DNA from: Ignavibacteriales bacterium
Lineage (GTDB): Bacteria; Bacteroidota; Ignavibacteria; Ignavibacteriales; Ignavibacteriaceae
Length of the DNA stretch: 39,396 bases
Assembly: GCA_012517155.1 (NCBI GenBank)
Contig: JAAYVN010000089.1
Span: forward strand, 1-39,396
Direction of reading: 5' to 3'
The notes beneath the pieces were generated by a model. That model was given only the letters and a program-made list of their open reading frames with translations, had not been told where the DNA came from and ran no database searches. The position numbers and the translations under genes are program-made. This document shows positions 8,361 to 13,935 of the stretch, one piece after another. How positions within the stretch are numbered: position 1 is the stretch's first letter; the number at the start of each line of letters is the position of its first letter.

Positions 8361-10070
8361 CTAAAAAATCCGCTCGTTATATATAAAATTAAAATTGGTT
8401 ACCGACCACCGCGCCGGCAGTTTTATCTCTTCCCGGAATGTGCTGAACGACTCCGCAGGCACAAAAGGATATGGGAATCCGGCATCAATCTCTCCGTTCC
8501 CGTTTTCATCGTGCACAAGCGTCAGGAAATATGTCCCCGGCACTATCCGCTCGAACTCAAATGTCGCATCGCTCTTTAGTTTCTGCCGGTAAACTAATTT
8601 CTTCTCGTCCTTGTTCCTTAGTATCAGCAGCGGATTCTTGCTTGTGTCCGCATACTTCACTGTCCCCGAAAGCCCCGTGAATTCCAGCCCGGTAATGGTC
8701 TTGAATGCATAGTTGTATAGCGAGTCCCGGTAACTGTTCCCTGCGGCGTCTTTTATATCTTCCTTCATGAACTTGATTTCATAGTAGGTTTCCGGCTTTA
8801 GTTCTTCCGCCGCTTTTATCATGTAACTACCGTCGTCCAGTCGCCGGAAGTCAAATTTTATCCTGTTCCCCACGGTGTCCCCGAAGCTTATCCTCTCTGC
8901 CAGCGGCTTCGCCCCCCCAAACATGTCCGTCGCATCGTCCAGCCTGAATATGAATTCCGGATATGCAAAATCAATTTTGTCTGAGTAAATGTTCGGCTCA
9001 GTCGAGTATATCACCGGCTTCAGCGTGTCCGGCTTAATGGATACGGTTATTGCCACAGTGTCCGTGCCGGATAAATTTCCTTTTCTGTCCCGTAAATTCT
9101 CCGACAACAGATAGTAGCTCTCTTCCTCTCTGAATAGCGTGTCTGTCACCAGCACCAGTTCCTTCTCTTTCGTCCTCCCCTTGAATACGAACAGGGGATT
9201 GGCTATCTTCCGGTATGCCGAATCGGTTATGCTGAAATTCTCCCTTTTGTAAGCGGATGTGTCCGCCTCCTCGGATAAAATCAGTAATATGTGCTGCCTG
9301 TCTGTCATTACTGCGGAAAAAAGCTTCGGACCCGTCGTGTCAATTTTTTGCATTACGTAGTTCAGTCCGTAAAAAGCGGAATCCTCTTCCGAAAGGGGTA
9401 TGTCAGTGTGCGGCATTCCTATCAGATCCTGCTCCGGCTGGAATACCCTGTCCCTGAATTCATCCTTCACTGCAAATATCCTGTACTTCCCGTATGCCAG
9501 ATAATCCAGCTTGAAATAACCGTTTGTTCCCGCCTGGGAAATATAATCGGGTTTGTGTATGGAGGGATCAATCGTGTCCCCCTCAATCCTGTATGCAAAC
9601 AGCATTATACCCGAGGGTTTCTCATCGCTTACGAATCCCTCAATTTTACCATTGTCAATCTTCTCCCCGGTGGAAAATGCAAAGGTGAAAGCGGAATCCA
9701 TCCGGTTCCGGTTGTTGTAATCCACCACGTCCGTACCTATCGATATGCTGTAAGTCATATCCGGTCTTAACTCTGAAGGGAAAAATACCCTCGCGTACCG
9801 GTTGGTCCAGCTCACTTCCAGATTCCCGTCAACCGGTGGAGAAATGAATATCGCATCTTTGAAAGTCCGCTTGTCCACATACTCCGAAAACTCAATCTCG
9901 AAATAATTATCCCCGAACCCGGTAGTCCGGTTCTCCGGATATGTGGATACTATCTTTGGGGGAATCAAATCTGCCTCACCTCCTCCGGGGGGAAGCTGGT
10001 TTGCACAGTGGAAACTCAGCAGCGCGGGAATTAAGAGTAAACCCCGTTTCAAATACTCACTTGCTCTCAT
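8361..10070 (-). CDS. Ig-like domain lipoprotein (SbsA-Ig/Big_5 type)
   Basis: A 569-residue exported protein of a family widespread in Bacteroidota. The signal MRASEYLKRGLLLIPALLSF precedes HC, where Cys22 is the likely lipidation site. His at -1 is atypical for a lipobox, so processing is less certain than usual. The mature start CANQLPPGGGEADLIPPKI is the conserved opening of this family. Residues 38-130 form a Big_5-like domain (PPKIVSTYPENRTTGF, FEIEFSEYVD, TYSISIGTDVVDYNNR, TFAFSTG). Two further domains follow (TLKPVIYSTEP near 345), and near the end DENGNGEIDAGFPYPF resembles a calcium-binding loop. The function is unknown. Its start overlaps the end of mltG by 14 nt and mfd follows, so it is co-transcribed with both. 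Confidence 0.85.
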   Translation of the reverse strand: MRASEYLKRGLLLIPALLSFHCANQLPPGGGEADLIPPKIVSTYPENRTTGFGDNYFEIEFSEYVDKRTFKDAIFISPPVDGNLEVSWTNRYARVFFPSELRPDMTYSISIGTDVVDYNNRNRMDSAFTFAFSTGEKIDNGKIEGFVSDEKPSGIMLFAYRIEGDTIDPSIHKPDYISQAGTNGYFKLDYLAYGKYRIFAVKDEFRDRVFQPEQDLIGMPHTDIPLSEEDSAFYGLNYVMQKIDTTGPKLFSAVMTDRQHILLILSEEADTSAYKRENFSITDSAYRKIANPLFVFKGRTKEKELVLVTDTLFREEESYYLLSENLRDRKGNLSGTDTVAITVSIKPDTLKPVIYSTEPNIYSDKIDFAYPEFIFRLDDATDMFGGAKPLAERISFGDTVGNRIKFDFRRLDDGSYMIKAAEELKPETYYEIKFMKEDIKDAAGNSYRDSLYNYAFKTITGLEFTGLSGTVKYADTSKNPLLILRNKDEKKLVYRQKLKSDATFEFERIVPGTYFLTLVHDENGNGEIDAGFPYPFVPAESFSTFREEIKLPARWSVTNFNFIYNERIF

Positions 10071-11379
10071 TCTTCTTTTTCTCTTTCAGGTATTTATAGT
10101 ACTCGCGCGCCAGTCGCTGATGCTCGCTGAATGTGGACGAAAACTTGTGCCCCCCGCTTCCGTCTGCAACAAAAAATATGTAATTATGCTCCTCCGGATA
10201 AAGGGTCGCCAGTATTGCCTTCCTTCCCGGATTGTTTATCGGACCCGGCGGCAGTCCGTTTACTTTGTAAGTATTATAGGGCGATTCCACTCGCAGATCG
10301 GAATGTTTCAGCCGCTTCCATCCGTCCGGCTGAAGATATTGCACGGTCGGATCCGCCTGCAGTTTCATTCCCCGCTTAAGCCGGTTCAGATATACCCCCG
10401 CAATCGTCGGCATCTCCGGCTCGTAATTCGTCTCCCCCTCCACAATCGAAGCCAGAGTAAGCAGCTGATGAATGGAAAATCCCATTTCAATTGTACGCTG
10501 ACGCAGACTGTCGTTCAGAAATGCCGTCATCTCATTTACCATCATCCCTGCAACTTCCCTTGCGCTGCTCCGTTCGAAAAAGAAATACTTTCCCGGCAGC
10601 AAATACCCTTCAAGCGACCGCTCATCCAGCCCTTTGGAGACGATATAATCATAATCATCAACCAGTGCAATAAAAGAATCCGCCTCGGTAATCTTATACG
10701 ATTCAAACAATTTAGCCAGTCCTTTAACAGACGCCCCCCCTCCGATATTCAGTTCAAAAAGCCGGTCCCCCTTCCCCTCGTCAAGTATATTCAGCAACTC
10801 CAGATAGCTCAGATCCTGAGTGAAAGTATAGCGTCCTGCTTTTATATTCTTAGTTCCGCCCGAGATATAGGCAGCCAGTTTGAAATTGAATTTACTGGGA
10901 ATAAGTCCCCGGTCATAAATCCGGTTGGCGATAACGTCAAACGGTTCTCCGTTTTTAATCTCCACCTTCACCGGATAAGCCAGAGAAGTAGAATTAACTG
11001 TAAAGAAAGTATAATAAAGAAGGGAGAGGACAAAAAAGAAAAAAGCAATAACAAGCAGCCACTCCCTTTTCGAAAGCGCCTTTTTAATTGGTAACCTACC
11101 CCCGTTATCCGTAGATGATTTCTGAAAAGCCCGGGTAGCGTCCATTATTCTCTCATAAACCTTTGATACAAAAAGCACCAGATCTCTTTCCGGTACATTA
11201 TTTTTAATCCTCTCATTAATTTTCTTTTCCCGATCGGGAGAATAGCGGGGTAGGACGAGCGTGGATTTTTCAATTCCGATTTTCCGACTCAATTTAAAGC
11301 GGTATCTAAGCAGGCGGATAATCAATCCGTCGACCAGATCAACGCACTTCCGATACAATTTCAATCTACTCTCACTCAC
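10057..11379 (-). CDS. mltG: Endolytic transglycosylase MltG with an N-terminal chorismate-mutase-like domain
   Basis: A 440-residue inner-membrane protein. Residues 107-126 are a membrane helix. The periplasmic part is MltG/YceG (PF02618): a LysM-like region, then TLASIVEGETNYEPEMPTI (catalytic-Glu region near 314), YLNRLKRGMKLQADPTVQY, YNTYKVNGLPPGPINNPG and HNYIFFVADGSGGHKFS. MltG cleaves nascent glycan and sets strand length. Residues 5-87, cytoplasmic, align without gaps through their first half to AroQ-type (E. coli) chorismate mutase. Arg11, Arg28, Lys39, Arg51 and Glu52 correspond to R10, R27, K38, R50 and E51, Gln88 to Q86 after a one-residue gap, and Asp48 is replaced by S47. The start is GTG with AAAAGGG closely upstream, so the extra domain belongs to the protein. 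The frame runs unbroken across the junction. Confidence 0.93.
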   Translation of the reverse strand: MSESRLKLYRKCVDLVDGLIIRLLRYRFKLSRKIGIEKSTLVLPRYSPDREKKINERIKNNVPERDLVLFVSKVYERIMDATRAFQKSSTDNGGRLPIKKALSKREWLLVIAFFFFVLSLLYYTFFTVNSTSLAYPVKVEIKNGEPFDVIANRIYDRGLIPSKFNFKLAAYISGGTKNIKAGRYTFTQDLSYLELLNILDEGKGDRLFELNIGGGASVKGLAKLFESYKITEADSFIALVDDYDYIVSKGLDERSLEGYLLPGKYFFFERSSAREVAGMMVNEMTAFLNDSLRQRTIEMGFSIHQLLTLASIVEGETNYEPEMPTIAGVYLNRLKRGMKLQADPTVQYLQPDGWKRLKHSDLRVESPYNTYKVNGLPPGPINNPGRKAILATLYPEEHNYIFFVADGSGGHKFSSTFSEHQRLAREYYKYLKEKKKNESK

Positions 11380-11471: not shown

Positions 11472-11497
11472 TTCACCGTTCACTGTTCACCGTTCAC
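11472..11497. repeat. Heptamer tandem repeat overlapping the 3' end of tsaD
   Basis: Three heptamers TTCACCG, TTCACTG, TTCACCG plus a final TTCAC stand head to tail (period 7). Read on the minus strand, the repeat supplies the last five tsaD codons (Val-Asn-Gly-Glu-Gln) and its TGA stop at 11480-11482. Confidence 0.85.
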
Positions 11498-12526
11498 AAT
11501 TTCCCCCCATCCCGCCTCCGGAAGAGCTGGAAAAGTTTCCGCCTCGAAATCCGAACCATACCCCGATTTATACAGCGTATACCCCCGGAACGCAATCATC
11601 GCCGCATTATCCCCGCAAAACTCAAAACCCGGTATAAACACACGTACATTCTGATTATTCCCGATCTCCGCAATCGCCTCCCTAAGCGGTTTGTTCGCCG
11701 CCACCCCTCCCACCAGCGACACCGACTTCACCCGATATTCCTTAAGAGCGCGTTTAACACTCCGTGTAAGCGCCCGGATAACCGCATACTGAAACGACGC
11801 TGCGATATTCGGCAAATCCTGTTCCGGAATATGCCTTTCCGGATAGTGCTTCTCCACGTATCTCAGCACCGCCGTCTTCAGCCCGCTGAACGAAAAGTCA
11901 TAACGTCCCTTAAGCTCTGAAACCGGGAAGGGGATAGCCAGTGGATTCCCCCTCTCCGCATACCTCTGAATCTTCGGACCCCCGGGATAACCCAGCCCGA
12001 TCAGCTTTGAAACCTTATCAAATGCCTCCCCCGCAGCATCATCAACAGTAGTTCCCAGCCTCGCAAACTCCGTAAAACTCTTTACCAGCAGCAGCAGCGA
12101 ATGTCCCCCAGACACCACCAGCACCAGCATCGGGAACTCCGGCTTCTCCCCTCCAAGGAATCCCGAAAAAATATGTCCTTCAATATGATTCACCGGAATA
12201 AATACCTTCTTAGTCGCAAGCGCTAGACTCTTGGCGAACATGAACCCTACCAGCAGGGCACCAATCAGACCCGGACCCGCCGTAGCTGTAATGACTTCCA
12301 CCTCCTCAAGCGTAGTCCCTGCCTTCTTCAGCGCCTCCTTCACCAGCGGCAGCACCTGCTGAATATGAGCGCGGCTGGATAACTCCGGAACCACCCCTCC
12401 GAAAAGCTTGTGGAAATCCTGGGAGGAAATCACATTACTCAGCACCTCCGTCTCGAACTCCCCCGATTCCCTTAAAACCGCAACCGAAGTCTCATCGCAT
12501 GAACTCTCTATACCCAGTACAATCAT
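11480..12526 (-). CDS. tsaD: tRNA N6-adenosine threonylcarbamoyltransferase TsaD
   Basis: Transfers the threonylcarbamoyl group from TC-AMP to A37 of ANN-decoding tRNAs, working with TsaB and TsaE in the cytoplasm. Its 348 residues are normal for the family. It opens MIVLGIESSCDETSVAVL (ASKHA fold), has the metal ligands His114 and His118 in NHIEGHIFSGFL, then LVVSGGHSLLLL, DDAAGEAFDKVSKLIGLGYPGGP, SLVGGVAANKPLRE and the metal Asp in FCGDNAAMIA (D306). The ATG overlaps the stop of the proline dehydrogenase gene (ATGA), so translation is probably coupled. The final residues VNGEQ and the stop are encoded by a heptamer DNA repeat, so the natural C-terminus may once have been different; this should not touch the active site. 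Confidence 0.98.
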   Translation of the reverse strand: MIVLGIESSCDETSVAVLRESGEFETEVLSNVISSQDFHKLFGGVVPELSSRAHIQQVLPLVKEALKKAGTTLEEVEVITATAGPGLIGALLVGFMFAKSLALATKKVFIPVNHIEGHIFSGFLGGEKPEFPMLVLVVSGGHSLLLLVKSFTEFARLGTTVDDAAGEAFDKVSKLIGLGYPGGPKIQRYAERGNPLAIPFPVSELKGRYDFSFSGLKTAVLRYVEKHYPERHIPEQDLPNIAASFQYAVIRALTRSVKRALKEYRVKSVSLVGGVAANKPLREAIAEIGNNQNVRVFIPGFEFCGDNAAMIAFRGYTLYKSGYGSDFEAETFPALPEAGWGEIVNGEQ

Positions 12527-13449
12527 CCGCGCTTCGAGAAAAAGTTTTTCATAATATGCAGAGCCATATTCGGATTCTCCTGCAGTCTTCTTATCGAGTA
12601 CCTGTACCAGTCAATGCCGAACGGCACGTAAATTCTCACCTTGTATCCGTCCGCGTTTATCCTGTTTCTCAGTTCCTCCTTCACCCCCAGCAGCATCTGG
12701 AACTCGAACTTATCCTTCGGCACATTCAATTCCTTAATCAGCCGGTAAGCCTCCTTCACCAGATAGTCGTCGTGGGTGGCAATTCCAACGTAATTCCCGT
12801 CAGTTAACATCCTGTGGAGAATCTTCACAAAATTCTCCCTTATCTTCTGCCGGTTTTTAATCGCAAGCCTTTCCGGTTCAATATAAATTCCTTTACAAAG
12901 CCGGTAATTAGTCCCAAGCTTATTCAGTTCAGTCACATCGTCGTAAGTCCGTTTCAGATAAGCCTGCACTACCACCCCCACATTCTTATAATCCCGGTGA
13001 AAATGCTTCAGCAGATCAAAAATCCTGTCTGTGGTAGGCGTATCCTCCATATCCAGACGTACAAAACTCCTAATCTCCGTCGCCTTCTCCAGCAACTCCT
13101 TCACCTGAGTATAGCACAGCTCTTTGTCCAGCATAAGCCCCATCTGTGTCGGTTTAATCGAAAGGTTAGCGAGCAGATTATGCTCCTGAATCGCCCCCAG
13201 CACCTCCATGCATGCATTCTTCGAGGCAATCGCCTCCTCGCGGGTCGAAATCGCCTCACCTAGCACGTCAATTGTAGTATATATCCCCCGTTTATTCAGC
13301 TCCTTCGTCAGATTAACTGCATCACTCAGATAATCCCCTGCAATATACCTGCTCGAAAAAAACTTAACCACCGGTTTCGGCATCAGTTTTACAATAGTAA
13401 CAATAAATTTATTCAGATAACTTAACATAAAACTCCAAAATTTAACCAT
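12523..13449 (-). CDS. Proline dehydrogenase, monofunctional
   Basis: A 308-residue FAD enzyme of the PRODH family that oxidises proline to pyrroline-5-carboxylate, usually at the inner face of the membrane with quinone as acceptor. Motifs in order: GIYTTIDVLGEAISTREEA near 55, LSIKPTQMGL near 95, FVRLDMEDTPTTD near 128, VVVQAYLKRTYDDV near 160, YRLCKGIYIEPE near 183, GIATHDDYLV near 220 and FEFQMLLGVKEELR near 242. The C-terminal RYSIRRLQENP carries the Tyr/Arg-Arg substrate-binding signature of the family. There is no pyrroline-5-carboxylate dehydrogenase in the window to complete proline catabolism. It is the first gene of the tsaD-mltG-mfd run and has no clear Shine-Dalgarno. Confidence 0.93.
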   Translation of the reverse strand: MVKFWSFMLSYLNKFIVTIVKLMPKPVVKFFSSRYIAGDYLSDAVNLTKELNKRGIYTTIDVLGEAISTREEAIASKNACMEVLGAIQEHNLLANLSIKPTQMGLMLDKELCYTQVKELLEKATEIRSFVRLDMEDTPTTDRIFDLLKHFHRDYKNVGVVVQAYLKRTYDDVTELNKLGTNYRLCKGIYIEPERLAIKNRQKIRENFVKILHRMLTDGNYVGIATHDDYLVKEAYRLIKELNVPKDKFEFQMLLGVKEELRNRINADGYKVRIYVPFGIDWYRYSIRRLQENPNMALHIMKNFFSKRG

Positions 13450-13605
13450 GTAAATTACTAAAACCTTCTAAATAACAAAAATTCTCCCGCTCCCATAACA
13501 GCTCAATATTCAAGAAACTTACAGGCGAGTCGATGTTACACCCATAAAAAGTTAGACGGAGAGATAAAGAGACGGTGAGCTGGAGAGTTAAAAACAATTA
13601 ATGAC

Positions 13606-13619
13606 TTCGACGCGTCGAA
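13606..13619. repeat. Perfect 14-bp palindrome
   Basis: TTCGACGCGTCGAA reads the same on both strands. It is one of several unrelated short palindromes in this gap, and the flanks show no T-run. Confidence 0.6.
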
Positions 13620-13662
13620 CTAAATACAGCATAGCCACCTCAACAAATCGACAAAACGCCTG

Positions 13663-13676
13663 TCCCGCTTGCGGGA
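13663..13676. repeat. Dispersed palindromic repeat, copy 2
   Basis: TCCCGCTTGCGGGA, flanked by CCTG on the left and ACAAAAATTCC on the right, matches copies 1 and 3 in sequence and orientation. It lies in the middle of the intergenic mosaic, about 260 nt from the nearest gene end. Confidence 0.7.
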
Positions 13677-13742
13677 ACAAAAATTCCTTTTTCCCTCTTT
13701 ACTTCTACCTTACCCTCCCTTCGGCGATTGATAGCTCTTAAC

Positions 13743-13771
13743 CACAGATTTTCACAGATTACACACAGATT
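13743..13771. repeat. Three spaced copies of CACAGATT
   Basis: CACAGATT occurs at 13743-13750, 13753-13760 and 13764-13771, separated by two or three bases. No function is evident. Confidence 0.6.
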
Positions 13772-13823
13772 CTCACCCCGCTTCACGGGGCAGGCAGATT
13801 AACAAATCAACCCTTTTTACTTT

Positions 13824-13853
13824 ACGTTATGAACGTTACAAACGTTATAAACG
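13824..13853. repeat. 9-bp tandem repeat around AACGTT
   Basis: The units ACGTTATGA, ACGTTACAA and ACGTTATAA plus a partial ACG give about 3.3 copies with period 9. Each junction recreates the self-complementary AACGTT. Confidence 0.65.
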
Positions 13854-13855
13854 AC

Positions 13856-13870
13856 TCCGACTAAGTCGGA
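13856..13870. repeat. 15-bp palindrome with one-base centre
   Basis: TCCGACTAAGTCGGA has seven-base arms around a single central A. It is followed by ATGACGGCG and immediately follows the 9-bp tandem repeat. Confidence 0.6.
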
Positions 13871-13935
13871 ATGACGGCGCAGCCAACTTGACACCTCAAC
13901 AAATCGACAAATAAACAAATCAACCTTTTCCCGAC

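Follow-up and report, generated by a model that had tools for sequence, protein, structure and literature searches.

An AroQ-type chorismate mutase domain joined to a predicted MltG transglycosylase in Ignavibacteriales

Chorismate mutase (CM) supplies precursors of phenylalanine and tyrosine. In several bifunctional enzymes, namely the E. coli PheA P-protein, the TyrA T-protein and DAHP synthase-CM, the AroQ fold with its catalytic residues is fused to a second protein. Rare fusions in an unusual setting have been described between an exported CM and cyclohexadienyl dehydratase, and their authors observed no improvement in catalysis when the domains were linked (PMC10520331). On the other side, E. 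coli MltG (YceG) consists of a membrane helix and a YceG domain with a conserved glutamate, and a study on E. faecalis MltG describes an additional N-terminal cytoplasmic part (PMC12369325). In our literature searches, we found no description of a CM-MltG fusion.

The window, by which we mean the whole stretch of DNA analysed here, comprises 39,396 nucleotides from an Ignavibacteriales bacterium. A preliminary description of it had proposed that a CM-like domain is fused to the cytoplasmic end of MltG, and the gene bears this out: a CM_2 domain, a helix and a YceG domain lie in one unbroken minus-strand frame that shows no internal stop over all 440 amino acids. The features of the locus are as follows.

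10057..11379, minus strand: CM-MltG fusion gene, GTG start, 440 amino acids plus stop (open reading frame list and profile search)
11119..11352, minus strand: AroQ-type chorismate mutase (CM_2) domain, residues 10-87 (profile and fold match)
11002..11070, minus strand: predicted membrane helix, residues 104-126 (helix from the structure model)
10105..10965, minus strand: YceG/MltG domain, residues 139-425 (profile search)
11480..12526, minus strand: tsaD, directly upstream, a conserved neighbour (TsaD E 7.6e-92, same family as the relatives' tsaD)
12523..13449, minus strand: proline dehydrogenase gene (profile and gene order)
8361..10070, minus strand: Big_5-domain protein gene, overlapping the end of CM-mltG, a conserved downstream neighbour (profile, same family as the relatives' gene)

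The YceG profile (PF02618) matches residues 139-425 with an E-value of 9.6e-79 (265.1 bits against a cut-off of 32.4), and TIGR00247 scores 227.7 bits, above its cut-off of 103.4. E316 aligns with E218 of E. coli MltG, which we take to be the catalytic glutamate, and this column holds glutamate in 71 of the 72 aligned rows, the remaining row being a gap. By these profiles and the glutamate, the C-terminal part is a predicted MltG/YceG endolytic transglycosylase. The predicted structure has the YceG fold after a helix of membrane length at residues 104-126, which is preceded by a K/R-rich stretch; the helix would lie in the membrane with the N-terminus in the cytoplasm and the YceG domain in the periplasm. 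The Shine-Dalgarno-like sequence ahead of the GTG, cited in the preliminary description, is weak evidence for the fusion. A codon scan of the linker from Q86 to residue 114 is more informative: it found zero in-frame ATG, GTG or TTG, so that a separate MltG could not begin at a standard start codon in this stretch.

At the N-terminus, the CM_2 profile (PF01817) matches residues 10-87 with an E-value of 1.3e-11 when the whole protein is searched, and with 6.3e-13 when only the first 100 residues are used; the latter search, which had been proposed as a check, is significant at 49.2 bits against a cut-off of 27. The NCBIfam CM equivalogs (TIGR01805 and others) reach at best 42.1 bits, below the cut-off of 71.2, and therefore the domain is given no named CM subtype. 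In the single-chain prediction, helices at residues 3-41, 48-61 and 65-91 make up the three-helix AroQ fold, and this model resembles the solved AroQ mutases 2d8e (TMt 0.87), 1ybz (0.91) and 1ecm (0.80 and 0.83), although with Foldseek E-values of only 0.002-0.4. The fold matches also include 5go2 and the CM-like domain of B. subtilis DAHP synthase, which has a regulatory role in that enzyme.

The alignment to E. coli CM places R10, R27, K38, R50, E51 and Q86 at E. coli R11, R28, K39, R51, E52 and Q88, which we take to be the catalytic residues of AroQ CM, and T82 and S47 at S84 and D48, reproducing the residue correspondence of the preliminary description. Its claim that the active site is conserved also extends well beyond the window: all six residues are present in our protein and unchanged in 47 of the 47 CM domains found at mltG, fused or separate (282/282 positions). 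This includes the equivalent of R11, presumably the residue contributed by the partner chain of the AroQ dimer. The D48 position is not retained across the mltG-linked CMs of the lineage (N in 20, S in 19, D in 5, T in 2 and A in 1).

An unbroken CM-MltG fusion was found in 21 further genomes of the order, in one of which (G007) it sits on a 4.2 Mb single contig, as well as in a genome of another family (G485). In a tree of 72 loci, 22 are fused, our own included, and keep the six catalytic residues, as asked for in the suggested survey of MltG homologues; in a further 25, a separate CM gene immediately precedes mltG. Counted by well-supported branches, the tree shows four or more switches of the fused label, and in two genomes (G013 and G035) CM and mltG share one frame parted by a single stop codon. 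The preliminary description had linked a separate CM gene beside mltG to an assembly error behind our frame. The former is indeed common among relatives (25/72 loci), and it would suit an assembly or sequencing error that fused two genes, as would the lone stop codon in G013 and G035. However, such an error is refuted for the family by the 22 unbroken fused loci, including that on the single contig, and by G485, leaving it a negligible probability. The fusion is thus confirmed as real and not an assembly artefact. Among 19 genomes from elsewhere in the phylum with a CM at mltG, 18 have separate genes and one a fusion. We dropped any meaning in a frame shared by CM and mltG across the phylum: 17 loci are in one frame by selection for a two-domain alignment, and in G194 and G243, from the same batch, CM and mltG are in different frames.

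By profile search, the fused domain is the sole CM_2 in all 22 fused genomes, and an AroH-type CM (CM_1) was found in 0 of the 146 genomes searched; a second CM in our own genome, another suggested check, appeared with neither profile. Chorismate synthase, prephenate dehydratase (PDT) and prephenate dehydrogenase (PDH_N) are all above cut-off in 16 of the 22. A sole CM_2 with the rest of the branch in most fused genomes suggests that this domain normally serves as the housekeeping CM, anchored at the membrane, and indirectly supports that the N-terminal CM probably converts chorismate to prephenate. Thus, of the two readings offered earlier, the tethered active enzyme is the better supported for the family. 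The CM at mltG is also the only CM_2 in 19/19 genomes from elsewhere in the phylum. Ten of the 14 same-family tree genomes lacking a CM at mltG have one elsewhere, and the other four gave no CM_2, PDT or PDH_N match. A PDT gene lies in the same block as mltG in 16 of the 21 fused loci other than our own, in 8 of 25 separate loci and in 0 of 8 examined loci without CM. In many relatives it precedes the proline dehydrogenase gene; at the window locus there is no PDT gene before that gene.

Our own genome (99.65% complete) gave no PDT, PDH_N or PDH_C match in profile searches, and the housekeeping role therefore cannot be demonstrated in it. The same three profiles found no match in G073 and G080, both of which retain a CM at mltG as a separate, unfused gene; it is in these three genomes, where the six catalytic residues are kept with no PDT or PDH found, that the earlier sensing or dimerising reading holds some ground. 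A diverged TyrA, sought in all three with PDH_C plus PDH_N, was not found. Absence by these two profiles is not proof of a missing enzyme, since G003 has PDT and a fused CM and yet is negative for PDH_C and under the cut-off for PDH_N. CmoA, which uses prephenate in forming carboxy-SAM, was rejected as an outlet, with 0 of 10 genomes above the TIGR00740 cut-off, our own included; weak matches in 9 of the 10 resemble general methyltransferases, and 9 of 14 controls match, one above cut-off. The CM score of our protein (49 bits) is the second lowest among the full-length mltG-linked CMs of the CM_2 search, only G080 being lower (47.5).

We compared column conservation in ten CMs, from our own genome, G073, G080 and seven genomes with a second CM, with the 37 other mltG-linked CMs. 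The ten sequences, some of which are related to one another, keep the catalytic residues at 60/60 positions while 25 other lineage-conserved columns are down to 157/250; in the 37 others the values are 222/222 and 876/925. Our own CM has changed in 10 of the 25 columns and kept all six catalytic residues. Fisher tests per sequence are weak singly and were not relied on.

From these observations, we consider it probable that a whole AroQ CM capable of catalysis forms the N-terminus, and that this housekeeping CM of the lineage has been joined to mltG. A CM gene directly upstream of mltG, as in many related genomes, would have become joined to it through adjacency rather than a need to link both functions. 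Two protomers may form the intertwined AroQ dimer on the inner membrane face, where it would turn chorismate into prephenate, with two MltG domains on the periplasmic side. The prephenate of most fused relatives could then go to TyrA and to PDT, whose gene is frequently part of the same block; our own genome may either have lost the pathway recently with the enzyme still intact or use prephenate otherwise. This explanation is weakened by the unmatched PDT, PDH_N and PDH_C and the low CM score in our own genome, and a simple housekeeping role leaves unexplained the 7 of 25 separate-gene genomes that hold another CM besides the mltG-linked one. It also sits poorly with four genomes of the same family that lie off the tree and are 80-89% complete (G021, G089, G118 and G135), which have a PDH_N match, G135 also PDT, and no CM_2 match.

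The three genomes that keep a CM at mltG without a matched branch, and the intact catalytic columns in the ten drifting sequences, would fit a ligand-binding dimerisation module, in which chorismate or prephenate, bound at the inner face of the membrane, controls whether the periplasmic MltG transglycosylase dimerises or how active it is, and catalysis is perhaps incidental; a gated dimerisation switch would explain why the pocket is kept in branch-less and second-CM genomes. The fold match to the CM-like domain of DAHP synthase and the phosphorylation of the cytoplasmic segment of E. faecalis MltG with an effect on resistance (PMC12369325) point the same way. We nevertheless regard such a module as unlikely, and its coupling of the chorismate pool to glycan-strand length, through termination of peptidoglycan strands, as doubtful. 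With the sole CM_2 in 22/22 fused genomes, catalysis is needed wherever phenylalanine and tyrosine are made; among ten family-f1 genomes (of the 146) that match neither PDT nor PDH_N, CM_2 is absent from seven, which include five of a single genus, and is kept in only three; and stronger constraint on catalytic columns than on the others may be all that is seen, in sequences that are not all independent. Our own CM domain could instead be a passenger that outlasts a recent loss of the branch, since the useful MltG to which it is attached lacks a separate start codon, as the unmatched branch, the low score and the linker without start codons would allow. However, the retention of all six catalytic residues amid the other changed columns speaks against this, and hitch-hiking does not explain why G073 and G080, with the same apparent loss, keep a CM gene that is not fused; both points make a passenger rather improbable. 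The housekeeping CM joined to mltG therefore remains our preferred explanation.

The genome's only chorismate mutase, an enzyme of primary metabolism, is here tied to a predicted peptidoglycan transglycosylase, and if the link exceeds gene adjacency, it would connect chorismate metabolism directly with the growth of the cell wall. The fused, separate, redundant and pathway-less cases form a natural set that makes the link between CM and MltG testable. For annotators, proteins named MltG in this lineage can hold the CM of the genome, and missing the N-terminal domain would create a false missing pathway step.

CM-MltG resembles the AroQ bifunctional enzymes in its fold, catalytic residues and fused second protein. 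While their partners in PheA, TyrA and DAHP synthase-CM are cytoplasmic enzymes of the aromatic pathway, here the partner is a predicted membrane-anchored peptidoglycan transglycosylase. It shares with the CM-cyclohexadienyl dehydratase fusions the rarity and the unusual setting, but in those an AroQ-gamma CM is exported and its partner acts on prephenate (PMC10520331), whereas the CM of CM-MltG is predicted on the cytoplasmic side. Its helix, YceG domain and conserved glutamate are those of E. coli MltG. The extra cytoplasmic part recalls E. faecalis MltG, where the segment is predicted to be disordered and is phosphorylated (PMC12369325); in CM-MltG, it is predicted to be a folded enzyme domain.

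The preliminary description had proposed a chorismate mutase (CM) domain fused to the cytoplasmic end of MltG, and the profile search bears out both halves of the window protein:

11379 to 10057, minus strand: CM-MltG fusion ORF, GTG start, 440 residues
Residues 10-87: CM_2 domain (PF01817), well over the curated Pfam cut-off
Residues 104-126: helix that fits the membrane in the AlphaFold model
Residues 139-425: YceG domain (PF02618), well over the curated Pfam cut-off

The protein also reached the cut-off of the NCBIfam MltG model TIGR00247 and that of no NCBIfam CM equivalog, the best being TIGR01805 (42.1 vs 71.2 bits). In the AlphaFold model (20 aligned sequences, mean pLDDT 82.9, pTM 0.63; poor at residues 91-97 and across most of 342-380), residues 1-91 form three helices and the C-terminal part shows the YceG fold. 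Foldseek matched the C-terminal part to the YceG structures 4iiw, 2r1f, 8yq7 and 8yoa, and the N-terminal part to AroQ mutases, where the better E-values were just 0.002 to 0.4, yet the probability was 1.00, with an rmsd of about 1.5-2.4 and a TMt of 0.79-0.91 against single-domain chains. Most of 19 aligned fused relatives carry a ~20-residue extension (consensus MENxxxKIENELxxLS) before the CM domain; the window protein lacks it (window:11380-11424) and has no room for it because a stop codon lies 14 codons upstream. In the window gene, no in-frame ATG, GTG or TTG occurs in the short stretch that links the CM to the membrane helix. Of 20 fused genes examined, 17 contain such a codon, and these might also yield a separate MltG.

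The whole-protein search covered 59 genomes (the window's own and 58 relatives; 58 match) and the CM_2 search 146 genomes of the order (131 match), after which mltG loci were fetched and their frames read. On a quick tree of MltG plus TsaD from 72 mltG loci, rooted on the outgroup family f2, 22 loci are fused (the window's included), in 25 a separate CM gene immediately precedes mltG, and the other 25, 11 of them from f2, gave no CM match at mltG. With this root, all 47 loci with a CM at mltG fall inside the clade of f1, the window's own family, and f3 (SH-aLRT 100). The unbroken frame in 22 loci, one of them on a single 4.2 Mb contig (G007), indicates that the fusion is real. A separate CM gene beside a normal mltG in relatives, with the window's frame produced by misassembly, had been named as grounds for doubt; the separate gene does occur (25/72 loci), and the unbroken fusion in 22 loci speaks against the error.

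By its starred branches, the quick tree shows at least four changes of the fused label, and eight in all, a count without direction that therefore does not give the number of independent fusions. In G013 and G035, a single stop codon parts CM and MltG in the same frame, so the switch between the two states can take one mutation. The loci L089:1311-2651 and L110:7914-9311, with exactly one stop codon between in-frame CM and MltG, are possible snapshots of fusion or fission.

In relatives, the surrounding block reads pheT, a coiled-coil gene, zapA, RNase Y, coaE, prephenate dehydratase (PDT), proline dehydrogenase, tsaD, CM, mltG and a Big_5-type gene, the last named after the window's copy, of the same family by BLAST. 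The dehydratase gene is part of this block at 16 of the 21 fused loci, at 8 of the 25 with a separate CM and at none of 8 without a CM; this count leaves out the window and six more f1 loci without a CM, and contig ends shorten some loci. The window retains proline dehydrogenase, tsaD, CM-mltG and the Big_5 gene. Upstream of its proline dehydrogenase there is no dehydratase gene, but a gene for a T9SS-tail protein; the intervening stretch (13450-13935), where the dehydratase gene sits in many relatives, contains no ORF that reaches 80 aa. The best supported reading is that the fusion arose from the CM gene lying next to mltG.

The CM at mltG appears ordinarily to serve as the housekeeping CM. 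AroH-type CM is absent from all 146 genomes of the order, and the fused domain is the sole CM_2 match in 22/22 fused genomes; the search for a second CM that the preliminary description had called for thus found none in the window's genome. Chorismate synthase is present in 20 of the 22, PDT in 18 and the prephenate dehydrogenase profile PDH_N over its cut-off in 19, all three together in 16; those missing at least one are the window's genome, G003, G112, G114, G121 and G131, of which G112, G114 and G131 are 79-89% complete. The mltG-linked CM is the sole CM_2 in 18 of the 25 separate-gene genomes, and seven carry another (G004, G013, G018, G028, G031, G067 and G091). Among the 14 f1 genomes on the tree without a CM at mltG, ten have one elsewhere, and the other four (G001, G002, G029, G036) have no CM_2, PDT or PDH_N match. 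Such a distribution is the one expected of a housekeeping enzyme. Four genomes of the same family outside the tree (G021, G089, G118, G135; 80-89% complete) run counter to it, having a PDH_N match (G135 also PDT) and no CM_2 match.

The window's genome is itself an exception: at 99.65% completeness it encodes chorismate synthase, yet profile searches gave no PDT, PDH_N or PDH_C match, an absence that unmatched enzymes, missing contigs or stretches outside the searched sequence could account for. The same holds for G073 (99%) and G080 (92%), where the CM gene is separate. Ten f1 genomes among the 146 match neither PDT nor PDH_N; the three just named still carry a CM, located at mltG, and the other seven, five of them from one genus, have no CM_2. 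Across those three plus the seven separate-gene genomes that carry another CM, the six catalytic positions (R11, R28, K39, R51, E52, Q88) are kept in 60/60 cases and 25 other lineage-conserved columns in 157/250, compared with 222/222 and 876/925 in the remaining 37 loci, on which the 25 columns were chosen. This retention suggests selection on the pocket beyond Phe/Tyr supply, but the ten loci are partly related to each other and catalytic columns may be more constrained anyway. CmoA, the only other prephenate user searched for, gave no match over cut-off.

The window CM scored highest against mltG-linked CMs of its own order (46/46 matched, median 41.9 bits, best 54.1). Stand-alone, mostly acidobacterial CMs (51/51, median 37.4, best 42.7) score higher overall than mltG-linked CMs elsewhere in the phylum (19/19, median 24.7, best 49.3), but they were picked by likeness to the window query. 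Dehydratase-fused CMs and those in 359-374 aa frames are more distant, matching in 23 of 30 cases (median 16.5). From these scores, the CM was likely inherited together with mltG inside the order, and less clearly so beyond it. Position 48 is variable among the 47 CMs at mltG in this lineage, with N in 20, S in 19, D in 5, T in 2 and A in 1. In 10 of the 30 fetched non-mltG CMs, W replaces the catalytic E52 (L032, L033, L034, L035, L037, L038, L039, L040, L042 and L046); these are the 359-374 aa frames of some family members (209 aa in L038), presumed from size alone to be DAHP synthase-CM. Other loci (L036, L043, L055, further f2 and some f1) have CM and PDT sharing a single frame of about 387-405 or 668-736 aa, the longer ones with ~300 extra residues.

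Across 395 genomes of the phylum, at least 48 outside the order matched the whole protein through both domains, nearly all of those listed with a stop codon inside. Of 19 loci fetched, 17 of them picked for such a match, one is fused (G485, another family of the class) and 18 have a CM gene adjoining mltG; this CM is the genome's only CM_2 in 19/19, with R11, R28, K39, R51 and E52 in all and Q (14) or E (5) at position 88. Among the best 80 of 148 loci in the named collection, several of them, judged by length, the same contigs as in our comparison genomes and hence not independent, 17 are fused, 12 adjacent and 51 without MltG on the stretch read. The fused and adjacent loci mostly carry Ignavibacteria, Ignavibacteriales, Ignavibacteriaceae or Bacteroidetes labels (one Chlorobiaceae), and most of the 51 are Acidobacteria.

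The best supported reading of the protein is an active AroQ dimer that would be held at the inner membrane face and make prephenate for the cytoplasmic pathway. Open-licence papers yielded no description of a CM-MltG (YceG) fusion, which does not prove novelty, and the architecture may well be listed in domain databases already. One paper on CM and MltG/YceG mentions E. coli TyrA in a table, and one on CM and Ignavibacteria includes the combination of CM_2 and PDT among transferred architectures. In a structural study, the MltG of Mycobacterium abscessus is described as a monomer in solution (PMC11533991); an obligate CM dimer would then force MltG to pair. For E. faecalis MltG, it has been reported that the cytoplasmic segment can matter (PMC12369325). 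In E. coli K-12 (L170:3301-5135), pabC, encoding the chorismate-branch enzyme aminodeoxychorismate lyase, lies directly upstream of mltG, 2 bases apart, and the YceG structure 2r1f still bears the title 'predicted aminodeoxychorismate lyase'; this neighbourhood may be a coincidence or a recurring tie of mltG to chorismate metabolism. In exported CM fusions, joining is reported to bring no catalytic gain (PMC10520331), which makes it more likely that such fusions have a neutral or regulatory reason.
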